From the NCBI GenBank assembly GCA_008501635.1, contig QQUJ01000010.1, forward strand, positions 186,001 to 250,000: a DNA stretch of 64,000 nt. The letters run 5' to 3'. The notes beneath the pieces are model-generated. The model made no database searches. It saw nothing but the letters and a program-made list of their open reading frames with translations, and was not told the DNA's origin. The position numbers were made by a program, and so were the translations under genes. Below are positions 10,444 through 21,959 of the stretch, piece after piece (within the stretch, counting starts at the first letter, position 1; each line of letters starts with the position of its first letter). The DNA comes from Pseudomonadota bacterium. Lineage in GTDB: Bacteria; Pseudomonadota; Gammaproteobacteria; QQUJ01.

Positions 10444-10475
10444 ACCAGACAAACCGCGAGCCACTCTGATTGATC

Positions 10476-10958
10476 ATGATTGACGTTATCCGCCGGTTTT
10501 TCGACAAGTACATAGAGCCGGAGTTGGAGCACCCCGGCGCCGCGCATCGTGAGCATGCCTATCGACTTGCCACCGGGGCATTGTTGTTCGAAGTCTCGCG
10601 CGCCGATCACCATATCGGTGATCAGGAACTCACCATCATTGCGGGGCTTCTCAAGACTCGGTTCGACCTCTCTGTCGAGGACACGCAGCACCTGGTGGAC
10701 CTTGCGCATAGCGAGAGTGAAGAGGCGGTGAGTCTTTTCGAGTTCACGCGGCTGGTCGATGCCAGGCTGAGCGCAGGCGAGAAAATCCATGTGGTCGAAC
10801 TGCTGTGGGAGGTGGCATTTACCGACGGTCGGCTGGATCGTTACGAGGAGTACACCATCCGCAAGCTTGCCGATCTGCTGCATGTGGCACACCGTGATTT
10901 TATTGCTGCCAAACTGCGGGTTGAGCAGCGCCTGGGCAGCCCCATCGAGAATCCCTGA
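10476..10958 (+). CDS. TerB-family protein (tellurite resistance-like, COG4103 type)
   Basis: About 160 residues, all-helical, with the TerB-like acidic pattern DHHIGDQELTIIAGLL and a second half EVAFTDGRLDRYEEYTIRKLADLLH that looks like a repeat of the first. TerB-like domains bind metal ions at acidic clusters; the cellular role of stand-alone copies is unclear. A TTG at 10470 is also in frame, but the ATG at 10476 gives the usual MIDVIRRFF start. Its stop overlaps the next start (TGATG at 10956-10960), so it is coupled to the VOC protein. Confidence 0.85.
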   Translation: MIDVIRRFFDKYIEPELEHPGAAHREHAYRLATGALLFEVSRADHHIGDQELTIIAGLLKTRFDLSVEDTQHLVDLAHSESEEAVSLFEFTRLVDARLSAGEKIHVVELLWEVAFTDGRLDRYEEYTIRKLADLLHVAHRDFIAAKLRVEQRLGSPIENP

Positions 10959-11514: not shown

Positions 11515-11943
11515 TTACGAGTTGACGGTCTCTTTCAGTGCTTTTAACGCTGTTACACGGACGGCGGTACGCGCCGGTTTGGCCGGAATCTTGATCTCCG
11601 CACCAGTGAAGGGATTGCGGCCAACACGGGCCTTGGTCCGCGGCTTGGTTACGCGGCGTACCTTGACACCGGTTTCCGGAATCGTGATCTCGCCCGAGCC
11701 ACGTTTCTTCATGTGGCGGTTAACCAGATCTCCCATGGAGCCCAGTACAGCGACGACATCCTTACGGGCGACACCGGTCTCTTCAGTGATGGTTGCGATG
11801 ATCTGATTTTTGGTCTGCTTGGTAGCAATGGGTTTGAGGACTTTGGGGACGGCTACGGCTTTTGCGGTCTTTTTGCTGCTCTTTTTCGGTGCGGCTTTTT
11901 TTGCCGCGGCCTTTTTGGGTGCTGCCTTTTTCTTTGCTGCCAT
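11515..11943 (-). CDS. HU-like DNA-binding protein with lysine/alanine-rich N-terminal tail
   Basis: 142 residues from the ATG at 11943 (frame open to 12024, but MAAKKK is preceded by a GGGAGA site). Residues about 2-40 are a tail of K, A and P with KKAAPKK-type repeats, like histone H1 tails. Residues about 45-140 are an HU/IHF fold: TKNQIIATITEETGV, GSGEITIPETGVK, and the DNA-arm signature GRNPFTGAEIKI. HU-like proteins bend and compact DNA. Tailed HU proteins are known in some Proteobacteria and Actinobacteria; the tail here is N-terminal. The gene is monocistronic and has a likely promoter at 11992-12019. Confidence 0.9.
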   Translation of the reverse strand: MAAKKKAAPKKAAAKKAAPKKSSKKTAKAVAVPKVLKPIATKQTKNQIIATITEETGVARKDVVAVLGSMGDLVNRHMKKRGSGEITIPETGVKVRRVTKPRTKARVGRNPFTGAEIKIPAKPARTAVRVTALKALKETVNS

Positions 11944-11991
11944 GGAGGTCTCCCGGTTGGTAGTGGCGAAACATACGCGTGTGGGCGCAAA

Positions 11992-12019
11992 AATAGCACA
12001 AACCAAAACGCTTTTGGCA
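11992..12019 (-). promoter_or_regulatory. Candidate sigma-70 promoter of the HU-like gene
   Basis: On the minus strand, TTGCCA (12019-12014) and GCTATT preceded by TG (11997-11992) are 16 bases apart, about 50 bases upstream of the ATG. Seen by eye only. Confidence 0.35.
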
Positions 12020-12054
12020 AGCAAATAACGCTGTTTGGCAAACTTTTACGGGAA

Positions 12055-13949: not shown

Positions 13950-16900
13950 ATGGGTGAACCAAAGGCTATTGTCGAAGAGGGGCTGCTCAAGCGGTTCGTC
14001 CCCATTAGCGCACTAGCCGAAAACAGCCTGCGTCAGATCGCCAAGAAGGCGGTTCTGGCGGAATACAAACCCGGCGACTACCTGTTCAAAAAGAATCAGC
14101 GGGACGGAAACACACTCTATCTTCTCTCGGGCGACATCGATCTTGTCGCCGGAGGCCAATCGGTGCACGTCGAGGCCGGCTCCGAAACCGCAAGGCACCC
14201 TATCGGGCAGCATCAACCACGTCAGGTCGACGCGGTGGCACGCAGCGCCGTTACCTGTATTCAGGTCGAAACCAACCTGGTCGACATGGTGCTCACCTGG
14301 CAGCAGTCCTCCGTGGAGGTCGGCGAGATCAATCAGGACAGTTCCAGCGACTGGATGACGCGCATGCTCCAGAATCGCCTGTTCCTCAAGCTGCCGCCGG
14401 CCAATATCCAGAAGATAATGATGTTGATGGAGGACATGGAGGTCAGCGAAGGCGACACCATCATCCGCCAGGGCGAAGAGGGCGATTACTACTATTACAT
14501 CCGCAGCGGCCGCTGTCAGGTGCTACGACAGCCGCGTCCCGATGCACCCGAGGTGAAGTTGGCCGAGCTGCCGGCAGGGGAGTCCTTTGGCGAGGAGGCG
14601 TTGGTTTCGGAGGAGAATCGTAACGCCACGGTGCGTATGTTGACGGATGGCGTCTTGATGCGACTGGCCAAAAAGGACTTCGTCAAACTCATCTCCGATC
14701 CGCTGCACAATATCGTCGACTACTACAAATCCGAGGTGTTGGTCAGTGATGGGGCGGCCTGGTTGGATGTACGCCTGCCCGACGAGTACGCCAATTCGCA
14801 TATCTCGGATGCGATCAACATTCCTTTGCCGACCTTGCGTTTGCAACTCAAGCAGCTCGATAAACGCCGCAGTTACGTAATTTATTGCGATACCGGTCGG
14901 CGCAGTTCCACCGCCGCCTTTCTGATGAGCGAACAGGGATTCGATGCCTATGTTTTAGGTGGTGGCCTGATGAGTCTGCCGCCGGAAGTGTTTTTGGTTT
15001 CAGACAATAAAGAAGATGCCAATCGTGCCGGAATCGAGATGATCTCGTCGCAGATTGTCAGGCAGGGAGCCAAGGACGCCGAGAACAAGCGTGTTGAATC
15101 CAAAAAGGAAGAGGCCAAGCGGTCAGATCCAAAGAAAGCGACGAGCCCTCCCGCCAAGCCGACCCCGGTACCGGGGAAACCGGTGAGCACGGCGAAGCCC
15201 GAGTCAACCAAGAGTACGACGACTACGCAGGATGTGCTGGCGCGTGCACGCGAGGCGTTGGAACAGGCACGGCGTGTCAAGCACAAAGGCCCGGAGACGG
15301 CGCCAGCAAAAGCGGCAGCGCCTGCGGCTGCGAATACCCCCGCGAAAGCCATGGGGTCCGCATCAGAGGAGCAGCAGCGCACTACAAAAATCCTGCAAGA
15401 GGCACAGGCCTCCAACATGCTGCTGCAGCAGGAGCTGCAGCGTGCTGAAGAGGATCTGCACCGTATCAATCAGCAGTTGGAGGAGATGCTGCAGGAGAAT
15501 CAACGTCTCGAGGTGGCGTTGGTCAAGCAGCAGAGCTCAGGCAAGAGTGCGGCTGAGGAGTTGCAGCAGCGACTCGATGCCGAGCGGGCCCGCAACCGCG
15601 TCGACCTGGATGCGTTGAATGAAAAACTGCGTGTCCTGGAGAGCGAGAGGAGCAGTGCACGCCGCGAAAACGACGAAACGCGTGACGCGATGGAGAAGCT
15701 GCGTCAGGAGCAAAAAGCCCAATCCACCGAGTGGGAAAGGAAGCTCGGTGAAGAGATAGCGCGCCACCAGCGCGATCGGGAGGATCTGGAACGCCAACTC
15801 AATGAGGTGCGGCGTGCGCGAGACCAGGCCGAGGCGCAGGCCCAGAGCGGGCAGCGTACCACCGATGAGCTGACGGAGAAGTTGCGCTCGGAGCGCAATG
15901 AGCTGGAAGGCCAGTTGCGGAGTACAAAGGAACGTCAAAGTGGCGAGTTGGCGGAACTCAACGACCGGCTCACCGAAGCCAGGCGTGAAACCGAAGCGTT
16001 GAAAAACGCTACCGCCGGGCAGCGGGAGTTGGAGCAGCAGGTGGAGAGTCTGCAGGCTGCCCTGACTCAACAGAGTGCGGAGCTGGCCACGCTGGATGGG
16101 CGCCTGGTCGACGCGCAGAAGCAGCAGCAGTCCACAGATGCGGTTCGTGTTCAGCTGGAGGCGCAGGTCAAGCAGTTGGCCGGAGAGCTGGAGCAGGGGC
16201 AGGTGGCCGCACAGCAGTTGGAGCAGTTGCGTAGTGACGTCGAGGCATTGCGTGCAAAGGCTCAACAAGCTGAGAACGAGAAACAGACAGCGAGTGAGGA
16301 GCAACAGCGGGCAACGGAGCTTGCCGAGCAGGCGGTAGCCGATCAGAAACGGACACAGGAGGAACTGGATTTCACTCAGCGCACGGTAACCAAAGCGCTG
16401 ATGGACAAGGAGGGCGCTGAAACGAAATTGGCCAAAGCCCAGGATCAGTTGGAGCAGGAGCGAAGCGAGCGCGAGCGGCGCGACAGCGAACTCGAACAGC
16501 TCAGGGCCGAGACTGCAGCGCTGCGCCAGGCCAGAGATCAGGCTGTTGCAGAGCGAGACGAAGCTCAGCAGGCTCGCCAGACCGCAGAAGCGGCCGCGGA
16601 GCAGGCCCACAATGAACGTAAGGATCGCGATCGGGAACTGAAGGCTGAGCTCGATCGTTTACAGAAGGAGATCGCCCAGTACCAACAGCGCCTTGAGTCT
16701 GCGCAAGCGGTGCGCGAAGAGGCTGAAAGAGCGCGTCTCGAGGCCGAGGAGCGCGCCAACAAAGTGTTCTCCACCAACGATCAGCGCCAACAGGAGCTGG
16801 AGGGCCAGATTCAGGAGTATCAGACCGTTCTTGCCCGCATGGAGGAGGAGCTCAATCAGGTCGGGCGAATCACCGAAGAGGCAGATAGCACACGCAAGAC

Positions 16901-18347
16901 GCACGAAGATCGCATCCAGCGTATGGCGCAAGAGATGGAGCGCCTGCGGCGTCTGGTCAAAGAGGCCGAGAGCGAGAAGGAGGATGCGTGGCAGTCGCGC
17001 AAGCAGGCCGAACAAGAGGTTGCCCGGGCGCGGCGCGAGGCTGTGGAGGCGATCCAGAAATCCAACGATCAGGTGCGCAGCGCACAAACCGACCTGCAGC
17101 GGGTGCGCTCCGAGACTGAGCAGGAGATACAGCGCCGTCTCGAATTGGAAACCAATCGATTCATGGCGAAAGATGCGGTCGCGGCACCGCTACCGGTGGT
17201 GGCAAAGTCGAACTTTCAGGATGCTTCTAGCCGCTCGGAGCGTGAGGTGACGTTGGGGGCTGAGCGCATACGCGCCACACAAACGGTCACCGGGCGCCAT
17301 AAGCCGCAGGAGAAAAAGGGCAGCACAGGTTTAATTCTCTTTCTGGTACTGCTTACAGTGGGTGGTGTGACGGCGTTTGTTTTCAAGGATCAGTTGATGT
17401 CGATCTTGGGGATATCTCCCGCGCCTGAAGTAGCCCCGCCATCCGCCAGTGCGCCGGTGTCCCCCGCTCCAGCGCAATCCAGTGCCAAACCGGCAGCTCC
17501 GCAGCCGGCTGGTTCGCAATCCGCGGCTGCGCCCAAACCGCAAGCCAAACCGGCACCCGTGCAGGCGCCGGCACCGGTGCAAGCACCACCGCCCGTGCGG
17601 CGCTCTACCGAAACGATTCGCGGCGACACTGTTCAGGATCCGCTGCGCGGCGGTGGTTTGGCGCCGGTCATGGTGCGCATCCCAGCGGGCGATTTTGTGA
17701 TGGGAGATGATACGGCCTCCGATATCACGGTCAGACCCCAGCATACGGTCAATATTGACGCCTTTGCCATTGGCCAGAATGAGATCACTTTTGAAGATTA
17801 TGAATTGTTTGCCCAGGCGACGGGGCGGGAAGCTCCCGATGATCAGGGTCGCGGACGTGGCAAGCACCCTGTTGTCAATGTCTCATGGAACGACGCGCGC
17901 GTGTACGCCGCCTGGCTGAGCGAGCAGACCGGGCACCGCTATCGTCTGCCCACCGAGGCAGAGTGGGAGTACGCCGCTCGGGCGGGACAGAAGGGCTCCT
18001 ATTGGTGGGGCAGCGCGGTGGGCATCAGCAACGCGAATTGCTTTAACTGCGGCAGCCAGTGGGATGGACTACAGCCGGCGCCTGTCGGCAGTTTTCGCGC
18101 CAACCCGTTTGGAATCCACGATACGGCGGGCAATGTGGCGGAGTGGACGCGCGATTGCTATCACGCGAGTTATGAAGGCGCACCCGCAGATGGCAGTGCC
18201 TGGGAGACTGGAGAATGTACCGAGCGGGTGGTGCGCGGTGGATCGTTTGCCAGTTCGAGCAAAGCGCTGCGCTCGGTGAACCGGGAACGCTTTACCCTCG
18301 ATACTCGCCTCGACAATCTGGGTTTCCGCCTGGTGCGCGAGGAGTAA
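13950..18347 (+). CDS. Giant fusion: two cyclic-nucleotide domains, rhodanese, coiled coil, TM helix, FGE-sulfatase domain
   Basis: 1465 residues, no single named family. Residues about 12-115: a diverged cyclic-nucleotide-binding (CNB) fold. About 142-250: a second CNB domain with phosphate-cassette-like GESFGEEALVSEENRNATV. About 262-345: a rhodanese domain with WLDVRLPDEY and catalytic-type Cys313 in YCDTGRRSS. About 355-470: low-complexity K/P/T linker. About 475-1090: a very long coiled coil rich in E, Q, R. 1127-1145: one membrane helix preceded by KPQEKKG (positive inside). About 1155-1225: P/A-rich linker. About 1235-1465: FGE-sulfatase (SUMF1-like, C-type-lectin-fold) domain with RLPTEAEWEYAARAG, NVAEWTRDCY and RVVRGGSF. 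Topology would place CNB, rhodanese and coil in the cytoplasm and the FGE domain in the periplasm. It may couple a nucleotide or sulfur signal to the envelope (inference). No partner gene is linked. Confidence 0.9.
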   Translation: MGEPKAIVEEGLLKRFVPISALAENSLRQIAKKAVLAEYKPGDYLFKKNQRDGNTLYLLSGDIDLVAGGQSVHVEAGSETARHPIGQHQPRQVDAVARSAVTCIQVETNLVDMVLTWQQSSVEVGEINQDSSSDWMTRMLQNRLFLKLPPANIQKIMMLMEDMEVSEGDTIIRQGEEGDYYYYIRSGRCQVLRQPRPDAPEVKLAELPAGESFGEEALVSEENRNATVRMLTDGVLMRLAKKDFVKLISDPLHNIVDYYKSEVLVSDGAAWLDVRLPDEYANSHISDAINIPLPTLRLQLKQLDKRRSYVIYCDTGRRSSTAAFLMSEQGFDAYVLGGGLMSLPPEVFLVSDNKEDANRAGIEMISSQIVRQGAKDAENKRVESKKEEAKRSDPKKATSPPAKPTPVPGKPVSTAKPESTKSTTTTQDVLARAREALEQARRVKHKGPETAPAKAAAPAAANTPAKAMGSASEEQQRTTKILQEAQASNMLLQQELQRAEEDLHRINQQLEEMLQENQRLEVALVKQQSSGKSAAEELQQRLDAERARNRVDLDALNEKLRVLESERSSARRENDETRDAMEKLRQEQKAQSTEWERKLGEEIARHQRDREDLERQLNEVRRARDQAEAQAQSGQRTTDELTEKLRSERNELEGQLRSTKERQSGELAELNDRLTEARRETEALKNATAGQRELEQQVESLQAALTQQSAELATLDGRLVDAQKQQQSTDAVRVQLEAQVKQLAGELEQGQVAAQQLEQLRSDVEALRAKAQQAENEKQTASEEQQRATELAEQAVADQKRTQEELDFTQRTVTKALMDKEGAETKLAKAQDQLEQERSERERRDSELEQLRAETAALRQARDQAVAERDEAQQARQTAEAAAEQAHNERKDRDRELKAELDRLQKEIAQYQQRLESAQAVREEAERARLEAEERANKVFSTNDQRQQELEGQIQEYQTVLARMEEELNQVGRITEEADSTRKTHEDRIQRMAQEMERLRRLVKEAESEKEDAWQSRKQAEQEVARARREAVEAIQKSNDQVRSAQTDLQRVRSETEQEIQRRLELETNRFMAKDAVAAPLPVVAKSNFQDASSRSEREVTLGAERIRATQTVTGRHKPQEKKGSTGLILFLVLLTVGGVTAFVFKDQLMSILGISPAPEVAPPSASAPVSPAPAQSSAKPAAPQPAGSQSAAAPKPQAKPAPVQAPAPVQAPPPVRRSTETIRGDTVQDPLRGGGLAPVMVRIPAGDFVMGDDTASDITVRPQHTVNIDAFAIGQNEITFEDYELFAQATGREAPDDQGRGRGKHPVVNVSWNDARVYAAWLSEQTGHRYRLPTEAEWEYAARAGQKGSYWWGSAVGISNANCFNCGSQWDGLQPAPVGSFRANPFGIHDTAGNVAEWTRDCYHASYEGAPADGSAWETGECTERVVRGGSFASSSKALRSVNRERFTLDTRLDNLGFRLVREE

Positions 18348-18434: not shown

Positions 18435-18478
18435 TGCGGTCTGGGACGCGAGTTCGTTGAATCCCAGACCGCATTTTT
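18435..18478 (+). terminator. Terminator of the fusion gene
   Basis: A perfect 12-bp stem (18435-18446 with 18462-18473), a 15-base loop and five T (18474-18478), 88 bases after the stop codon. Confidence 0.93.
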
Positions 18479-18518
18479 GTGGATGGCTTGGTGGGAACGC
18501 TGCCGAACGACCCGCCGT

Positions 18519-19806: not shown

Positions 19807-21309
19807 ATGAACGCAAATGGAATGTTTATGATCTGGCCCAATCAGCCGGGGTTGTCGGCAATCGTATGGGCGCTGGTCGCCATCGTCTTGCTCTACATGG
19901 CACGCAATCCCGTTCATCAGGCGATGATGGGTCTCGGCAAGGTCATTCATAATGCGTTGCGAGTCGCGTCCCGCTCTGTGAGTCTGGCCCGCGAGCGCTT
20001 GGAATTGCGCAATCGCGAGGTATTGCTCGCCGCCGGACGTGAGTCGGCAGAGCGGCTCATCGAACGCGAGTTTCGCCGCATCGAAGCGACCACCCAACGC
20101 GATCTGGCCGGCTATCCTGCGATGCATCGCAAGGTGATGGAGCAGGTGACTGCTATCGATGAGGATTACCGTGGTACCGCTGAGATAGCGCCGGAGATTC
20201 CGGGCTGGGTAGATGCCATCGAAGCCGTTGCGAAGATCCAGTCGGTCAGTGAACCACGCGTGGCGGAGGTGCTCGAGGACATTCATCGCTCATTTGAAAA
20301 ATCACATGGCCAGGCGATCTCCGCGTATCGCCAATCGGGAAAAGAGCGCCATCGCCTGCTGGCGCGCATGATGCCATACTGGCGCAGGCTGGCGCAGACG
20401 CTCGACAGCACTGAAAAGAGCATCAATCGGCTGCTCGAACGCACGCAGCATGTCGACAAGCAACTGGCTGAGTATGAGGAGATGACCCAGGGTACGGATC
20501 GCGCCCTGCGCACCCTGGCCTCGTCCTCGTTCACCCAGTTCGTTATCTCCGCATTTGTGCTGCTGGTGGCGATCGGTGGTGCCGTGATCAACTTCAATCT
20601 CATCGCTTATCCGATGCAGGAGATGGTGGGAGGCGCGAGCTATATCGGTGCGTTTCGCACCGCCGATGTCGCAGCCATGGTTATCATTCTGGTCGAGGTG
20701 GCCATGGGGCTCTTTTTGATGGAGTCGCTGCGGGTCACACGCCTGTTCCCTGTGATCGGCGCGCTGGATGACCGCCTGCGGGTGCGCATGATCTGGATTA
20801 CCTTTGCCATCCTCTTTACGCTCGCCAGCGTCGAGTCTGCGCTGGCCTATATGCGTGATTTGATCGCGGCTGACGTCGAAGCGCTGCGCCAATCGTTGGC
20901 CGGTGGTGCGGCGATGGTGGCGGCGGACAATCGCTGGATTCCCACTGTCGGACAGATGGTGATGGGATTTGTTTTGCCCTTCGCCCTGATCTTTGTCGCC
21001 ATTCCGCTGGAATCGTTCGTTCATGCTTCGCGTACCGTGCTCGGTATGGTGGCGGTGGGTGTGCTGCGCCTGATAGCCGCGGCATTGCGCCTGATCGGCA
21101 ATCTTGCCTGGCAGGGTGCGCGTATGCTGGTGCGAATTTATGATCTGGTCATCTTCGCACCCTTGTGGTTGGAGGACGTCATCCGCAAATCGGGGACCAG
21201 GACAGCGGAACCCGCGCGCAGTGGTTTGCATCAGACCATCCACAAGGCGCTGACCGACAGCGGCGTCTTCACCGAAAGCGCGGCGCGCGCGCGCGAGGTG
21301 TCGCCATGA
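19807..21309 (+). CDS. Multi-pass membrane protein with large helical domain, function unknown
   Basis: 500 residues, not assigned to a named family. One N-terminal helix (about 17-31), then a long, mostly helical charged region (about 40-235) with coiled-coil character, then four to five membrane helices (about 238-262, 288-308, 332-350, 386-404, 410-432) and a hydrophilic tail. An AGGAGGA site lies 7 bases before the ATG at 19807; another ATG four bases upstream opens a short frame and is rejected. Its stop overlaps the start of the next gene (ATGA at 21306-21309), so it is translated together with the VWA lipoprotein; the two probably form one envelope complex (inference). Confidence 0.85.
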
Positions 21310-21959
21310 GGCCGATGCGTCCCTATCTGCTGGCAATGCTGGTGCTGTGGCTCGGTGGCTGCTCGGAGCCGGCATCGCACGCACGCGGCTACTACATGCT
21401 GATCGATACTTCGGGCACCTACACACAGGAGATCGCCAAGGCGCAGCAGATCATCAATTACGTACTGGCCAACCTGCATCCCGGGGACTCGTTCGCCGTC
21501 GCGCGTATCGATACCGGTAGTTTCAGCGAGAAGGATATCGTCGCCAGGATCACCTTCGATTCACGACCGTCGGTGACCAATCAACAGAAGCGCGCCTTTC
21601 AGCAGACCATCGACGAGTTTGTAAAAGGTCTGAGAAAGGGCAGCCCGCACACCGATGTGTCGGGGGGATTGCTGCAGGCGGTGGAATACCTCAACGAAGC
21701 CGGAACCGGCCGTAAGACGGTGTTGATTTTCTCCGATCTGGAGGAGGATCTGGCCAAGGGGTATGTGCGCGATTTCAAGATACCGGTGGATGGTTTTGAT
21801 GTCGTCGCGGTCAATGTCACCAAACTGCGCAGCGATAACTTCGATCCGCGCGACTACCTCAATCGCCTGGAGAACTGGCGCAAGCGTGTCGAAAGCGCGG
21901 GGGGCAGATGGCGTGTCATCAACGATCTGGAACGGTTGGACCCGCTGATCGCCGGTTGA
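21306..21959 (+). CDS. VWA-like lipoprotein
   Basis: 217 residues. The N-terminus is a lipoprotein signal with lipobox LGGC (Cys about residue 18), so the mature protein is anchored to a membrane on the periplasmic side. The rest resembles a von Willebrand factor A domain: MLIDTSGTYT (MIDAS-type DxSxT at about 35-39), later TDVSGGLLQAVEYL and KTVLIFSDLEED. VWA domains bind ligands through a metal ion. Start codon chosen for the ATGA overlap with the preceding membrane gene; the frame itself is open from 21165. Partner and ligand unknown. Confidence 0.87.
   Translation: MRPMRPYLLAMLVLWLGGCSEPASHARGYYMLIDTSGTYTQEIAKAQQIINYVLANLHPGDSFAVARIDTGSFSEKDIVARITFDSRPSVTNQQKRAFQQTIDEFVKGLRKGSPHTDVSGGLLQAVEYLNEAGTGRKTVLIFSDLEEDLAKGYVRDFKIPVDGFDVVAVNVTKLRSDNFDPRDYLNRLENWRKRVESAGGRWRVINDLERLDPLIAG

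Follow-up and report, generated by a model that had tools for sequence, protein, structure and literature searches.

What might a protein do that carries cyclic-nucleotide-binding (CNB) and rhodanese domains at one end and a domain of the FGE-sulfatase fold at the other, with a membrane helix in between? The question is raised by an open reading frame (ORF) at positions 13950 to 18347 on the forward strand of the window, i.e., the entire 64,000-nucleotide stretch of DNA analyzed here. Starting with ATG, it codes for 1465 residues. Pfam searches with its product detected cNMP_binding over two stretches (6e-23; 81.1 bits for a cut-off of 27.5), Rhodanese at residues 268 to 341 (6.6e-15), and FGE-sulfatase at residues 1239 to 1463 (1.1e-59), all above the curated cut-offs. 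The domain set and topology that an earlier note had read from this DNA agree with those profiles, with structure models, with the distribution of charge on either side of the transmembrane (TM) helix, and with conserved cysteines. From the ORF, the Pfam matches, and 32 distinct proteins of the same order, the whole gene is described as double CNB (dCNB)-rhodanese-coiled coil-TM-PvdO-like domain. A terminator-like hairpin with a trailing T run (18435 to 18479, forward strand) lies 3′ of the stop codon, with a folding energy of -34.3 kcal/mol including the outer stem (z = -6.05), consistent with the claim that the gene has its own terminator; a simple terminator scan overlooked it because of its long loop. 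Rfam and tRNA scans of the region yielded no match. The domain anatomy is well supported and much surer than the mechanism; function, in contrast, is an inference. We regard the product as a real, conserved protein in which a cytoplasmic CNB-rhodanese head is joined through a very long coil and one TM helix to a folded, predicted periplasmic domain. Our preferred reading, to which we assign a probability of roughly 40%, is that the protein tethers to the inner membrane a cyclic-nucleotide-sensing rhodanese head, on the cytoplasmic side, and a binding domain, on the periplasmic side.

The head comprises three domains, all encoded on the forward strand. CNB1 (14001 to 14309, residues ~18 to 120) was delineated by Pfam, alignment, and model; CNB2 (14352 to 14705, residues ~135 to 252) by Pfam and alignment; and the rhodanese domain (14712 to 14984, residues ~255 to 345) by all three. 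CNB2 has an intact phosphate-binding cassette, FGEEAL...RNA, in which E215 is invariant (151/151 relatives) and R224 is found in 147/151. In CNB1, our own gapless alignment of the two cassettes placed Arg82 at the position where Glu is expected, and Arg or Lys occupies it in 106 of the 151 proteins; P90 (150/151) and R91 (146/151) are kept. The earlier description of two CNB folds, the second with a near-complete cassette, therefore stands. The degenerate CNB1 cassette itself (14178 to 14222, residues 77 to 91), with its near-invariant Pro-Arg, may accommodate a ligand other than a cyclic nucleotide. Cys313, already pointed out in the earlier note, is the loop cysteine of the CDTGRRS motif of the rhodanese domain. 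It is present in 142 of the 151 relatives, and D273 is present in all of them; the nine relatives without the loop cysteine count against our preferred reading. By the cNMP_binding profile and the Glu and Arg of CNB2, the protein classifies as a putative cyclic-nucleotide-binding protein, and by its fold and loop cysteine as a putative rhodanese sulfurtransferase.

An alignment of the first 357 residues of 20 sequences, including that of the window, whose other members are 35 to 46% identical to the window protein, gave a head profile that matched the regulatory subunits of PKA and PKG across the CNBs. The AlphaFold2 model of the head (mean pLDDT, 85.6; pTM, 0.52) led the fold search to the same proteins, and the low TM-scores against PKA and PKG structures fit with an uncertain placing of the domains in that model. 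The head thus shares with PKA regulatory subunits and PKG its tandem CNBs, matched in sequence and fold over both, with a canonical cassette in CNB2. It differs by the lack of Glu in the CNB1 cassette and by its fusion to a rhodanese in place of a kinase pairing. CNB folds are able to act without nucleotide, which counts against our reading of the head as a cyclic-nucleotide sensor.

The rhodanese domain is followed by a charged, low-complexity linker (14985 to 15335, residues 346 to 462), defined by composition, and by the coiled coil (15336 to 17183, residues ~463 to 1078), both on the forward strand. The coil was recognized by its 3.5-residue periodicity and paucity of proline. Of the 56-residue segments between residues ~463 and 1078, many, though not all, showed significant hydrophobic heptad periodicity, and those from ~490 to 1078 contained no proline. 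The coil that the earlier note had put at about 600 residues is therefore present, with its length corrected to approximately 615 residues inside a 780-residue stretch from rhodanese to TM helix. Among relatives, the distance between these two elements varies from 610 to 1294 residues, whereas the two ends are conserved. By simple arithmetic, with a rise of 0.15 nm per residue, a fully helical stretch of this size would extend over some 90 to 190 nm.

Such variation in length between conserved ends is also compatible with a cytoplasmic scaffold or spacer whose role is mainly structural: its coil would organize the envelope or a pole, and its CNB and rhodanese domains would be protein-binding folds devoid of ligand and chemistry. 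Relatives with the same head and coil yet no FGE domain, or no TM helix, argue in the same direction. However, the residues of the CNB2 cassette and of the rhodanese are nearly invariant in 151 proteins, which is unexpected for folds that act as adaptors only, and we therefore consider this alternative rather unlikely. The conservation of those residues speaks for the inner-membrane tether with a sensing head.

A single hydrophobic helix at residues ~1124 to 1147 (17319 to 17390, forward strand), with more Lys and Arg on its N-terminal side, corresponds to the one TM helix claimed previously. Hydrophobicity and charge place its N-terminal side inside, according to the positive-inside rule. A hydrophobic segment precedes the FGE domain in all full-architecture proteins, and in the 15 residues flanking the helix Lys and Arg are more abundant before than after it in 26 of 32 proteins and equal in 5 of 32. 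Next on the same strand come a Pro/Ala-rich linker (17391 to 17624, residues 1148 to 1225), identified by composition and predicted to be periplasmic, and the C-terminal domain (17625 to 18344, residues 1226 to 1465), defined by Pfam, alignments, and fold match. All 32 C-terminal domains contain exactly four cysteines, invariant at positions 1364, 1367, 1403, and 1423, as expected if they are disulfide bonded in the periplasm. The charge bias and the cysteines favor a topology with the head in the cytoplasm and the FGE-fold domain in the periplasm, a sequence-based prediction that agrees with the periplasmic location proposed for this domain in the earlier note.

The C-terminal domain was modeled with high confidence by AlphaFold2 (pLDDT, 91.6; pTM, 0.91), and its best match in both fold and sequence is PvdO, the periplasmic pyoverdine maturation protein (PDB 5hha; TM-score, 0.86; 35% identity). 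The earlier assignment to FGE-sulfatase holds for the fold (PF03781) but not for the enzyme. The copper-binding catalytic cysteine pair of FGE is absent at the aligned positions of the window protein, and none of the 32 domains has extra cysteines, so that a formylglycine-generating enzyme or sulfatase activator was rejected for all 32; the likeness to SUMF1, the formylglycine-generating enzyme, is limited to fold and Pfam family. With PvdO, the domain also shares the segment DC(Y/W)H...Y.GAP.DGSAW....C and the absence of FGE cysteines, whereas PvdO has neither cytoplasmic head nor coil and lacks the cysteine pair at 1364/1367. PorK/GldK of the type IX secretion system likewise has an FGE fold within an envelope protein, but it is a lipoprotein without cytoplasmic part, and its equivalog cut-off was missed (94.8 versus 350 bits). 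The genome of the window encodes two other FGE-fold proteins, which are separate proteins with 51 to 52% identity over the matched part. A PvdO-like FGE-fold protein of 490 residues (L212:5365-6837, reverse strand), also in this genome, has an N-terminal half without domain assignment. A diversity-generating retroelement target was rejected, as no template repeat was found and the last 161 bases matched only the gene itself in a genome search. An anti-phage defense protein was rejected as well, since PADLOC matches were weak, one of them to the coiled coil.

The FGE fold serves binding as well as catalysis, PorK and a Treponema variable protein being among its solved relatives, and the C-terminal domain retains invariant residues without the FGE cysteines. 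Both observations are compatible with a sensor working from the outside in, whose PvdO-like domain would bind an envelope ligand and relay its state through the helix and the coil to the head. Nevertheless, a simple conformational relay is hard to reconcile with a coiled-coil region that varies in length (~600 to 1300 residues) and with a Pro/Ala linker that is flexible, and we deem such a sensor unlikely. Less probable still is that the protein acts as a PvdO-like periplasmic oxidoreductase whose membrane anchor and regulatory tail are unusually long: although PvdO is the best match, the score of 160.4 bits against NF051459, the NCBIfam equivalog for PvdO as dihydropyoverdine dehydrogenase, is far below its 500-bit cut-off, two of the four cysteines, Cys1364 and Cys1367, have no counterpart in the aligned PvdO sequence, and no substrate pathway was found nearby. 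We retained the membrane tether, with the PvdO-like domain in a putative binding role.

The head was detected at E <= 1e-60 in 168 of 369 genomes of the class (143/314 among the good ones). Of 399 genomes drawn from across the phylum, 21 contained a match at E <= 1e-50, 5 of them outside the class, and the match of the window itself was the only one in an open frame of more than 1000 residues. A scan of named genomes using the whole protein as the query returned no matches, probably because most of its short patterns lay where conservation is low; with the head alignment as the query, matches were obtained. Among the fetched loci, 33 proteins (32 distinct) have the head, a long middle region, and the FGE domain, all in Gammaproteobacteria and mostly in sulfur oxidizers. 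Among the matches listed, the full architecture is present in 28 of the 369 genomes and, by our count, in 17 GTDB families, both numbers being lower bounds. Its loci include a Thiogranum metagenome-assembled genome (MAG) and several other gammaproteobacterial MAGs, and the closest relative of the window protein (L184) is 64% identical. No Pfam or NCBIfam model spans the entire architecture, and our literature search found no description of the CNB-rhodanese-coil-TM-FGE order. The statement that no named family has this order is thus correct as to naming, but the order itself recurs in at least 32 distinct proteins.

Related proteins with other architectures were also found. Short dCNB-rhodanese proteins of Gammaproteobacteria (~350 residues) match the head over their full length with ~35 to 49% identity and differ by the absence of coil, TM helix, and FGE domain and by another conserved neighborhood. 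At four loci (L192, L194, L200, and L121), genes for dCNB-rhodanese-coiled-coil proteins with neither TM helix nor FGE domain are arranged in divergent pairs. In six others (L191, L195, L210, L203, L204, and L052), head-coil-TM proteins end in a short C-terminal tail instead of the FGE domain; the tail motif EAE.E(Y/F).RLL..W is common to L191, L195, L210, and L052 and fainter in L203 and L204. In a quick tree of 102 heads, proteins with the FGE domain required 7 changes versus a shuffled mean of 27.5. Short forms required 3 changes, and long proteins without FGE required 7, a number that is probably lower in reality, as some of those entries are truncated by contig ends or possibly broken. 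The architecture is therefore clustered, although a single origin is not established.

The immediate neighbors in the window are unrelated, which counts against our preferred reading. The upstream side has TerB, HspQ-like, and HU-like genes, and the downstream side has a phosphoribulokinase gene. Among the 32 full-architecture loci, blast hits of one seed, which make the counts approximate, revealed the TerB-family gene (10470 to 10958, forward strand) at 17 other loci, the HU/IHF-like gene (11515 to 12024, reverse strand) at 16 other loci, and downstream Rieske and PfkB genes at ~17 and ~15 loci, respectively. The absence of an obvious partner claimed in the earlier note is hence true locally, but about half of the full-architecture loci share a common neighborhood of TerB, HU-like, PfkB, and Rieske genes. 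In those loci, a downstream PfkB gene in the same orientation often starts within 100 bases. In the window it is not adjacent, and no clear orthologue was found in the genome, which likewise counts against our preferred reading. As the HU gene is on the opposite strand, TerB and the gene at 13950 to 18347 do not form one operon. Further along the window, positions 19807 to 21959 hold an ORF of 500 residues with no Pfam match and hydrophobic, membrane-like stretches, which overlaps a downstream VWA-like ORF. Short-form loci have a strongly conserved setting of their own in about half of 72 cases (e.g., L141:813-7370): immediately upstream, in the same orientation, is a gene for a FadJ-like multifunctional beta-oxidation protein (36 loci), and downstream, in the opposite orientation, are genes for PilZ, DNA polymerase III delta', thymidylate kinase, and YceG/MltG (36 to 44 loci).

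An adenylate cyclase of class I or III is encoded in 165 of 168 genomes with the head versus 91 of 201 without it (Fisher test), raw counts without correction for phylogeny or genome size. By our tally, class III accounts for 152 of the 168 and class I is found in 13 of the remaining 16; the genome of the window has both. It also has soxB and dsrA, in line with the sulfur-oxidizer setting surmised earlier. One or both of these genes are present in 24 of 28 full-architecture genomes versus 13 of 28 short-form controls (Fisher P = 0.004), again as raw counts, the controls having been chosen by hand and the 24 including one genome with an incomplete soxB. This enrichment is suggestive only.

As we infer its topology, oligomerization, ligand, gating, periplasmic partner, and direction of signaling, the protein would be a tether that crosses the inner membrane once and probably oligomerizes as a parallel coiled coil, with its N-terminal head in the cytoplasm atop the long coil and the Pro/Ala linker holding the PvdO-like domain in the periplasm. 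CNB2 would bind a cyclic nucleotide, most likely cAMP, and the degenerate CNB1 may be a modified or regulatory site. Binding would alter the head and so gate the attached rhodanese, which could carry persulfide on Cys313 or sense persulfide or redox state. Together, coil and helix would anchor the state of the head at the membrane, beside the ligand or partner that the PvdO-like domain would bind in the periplasm. The observed conservation is in keeping with the earlier idea that a nucleotide or persulfide signal in the cytoplasm could be joined to an envelope action.

In the literature that we searched, we found nothing that ties cyclic nucleotides directly to rhodanese function. The nearest CNB-sulfur precedent found, in a different protein, is that of encapsulins: some shells of Family 2 carry a cNMP-binding domain, and in Family 2A systems the cargo is a cysteine desulfurase and the accessory genes encode rhodaneses (PMC8346489). 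CNB domains are also fused to membrane VanZ proteins, again distinct from the present one (PMC12419801).

The broader proposal is that of a new transmembrane signaling family of sulfur-oxidizing gammaproteobacteria, in which a cyclic nucleotide would gate persulfide chemistry through a rhodanese on the membrane-anchored coil (~90 to 190 nm if fully helical) and the periplasmic PvdO-like domain would read or act on the envelope side; taken as a whole, we hold it to be doubtful. Bacterial CNB proteins other than Crp-type regulators and channels are poorly understood. With its head module in ~45% of the sampled gammaproteobacterial genomes and its membrane-spanning version mostly in sulfur oxidizers, the protein described here provides a testable entry point.
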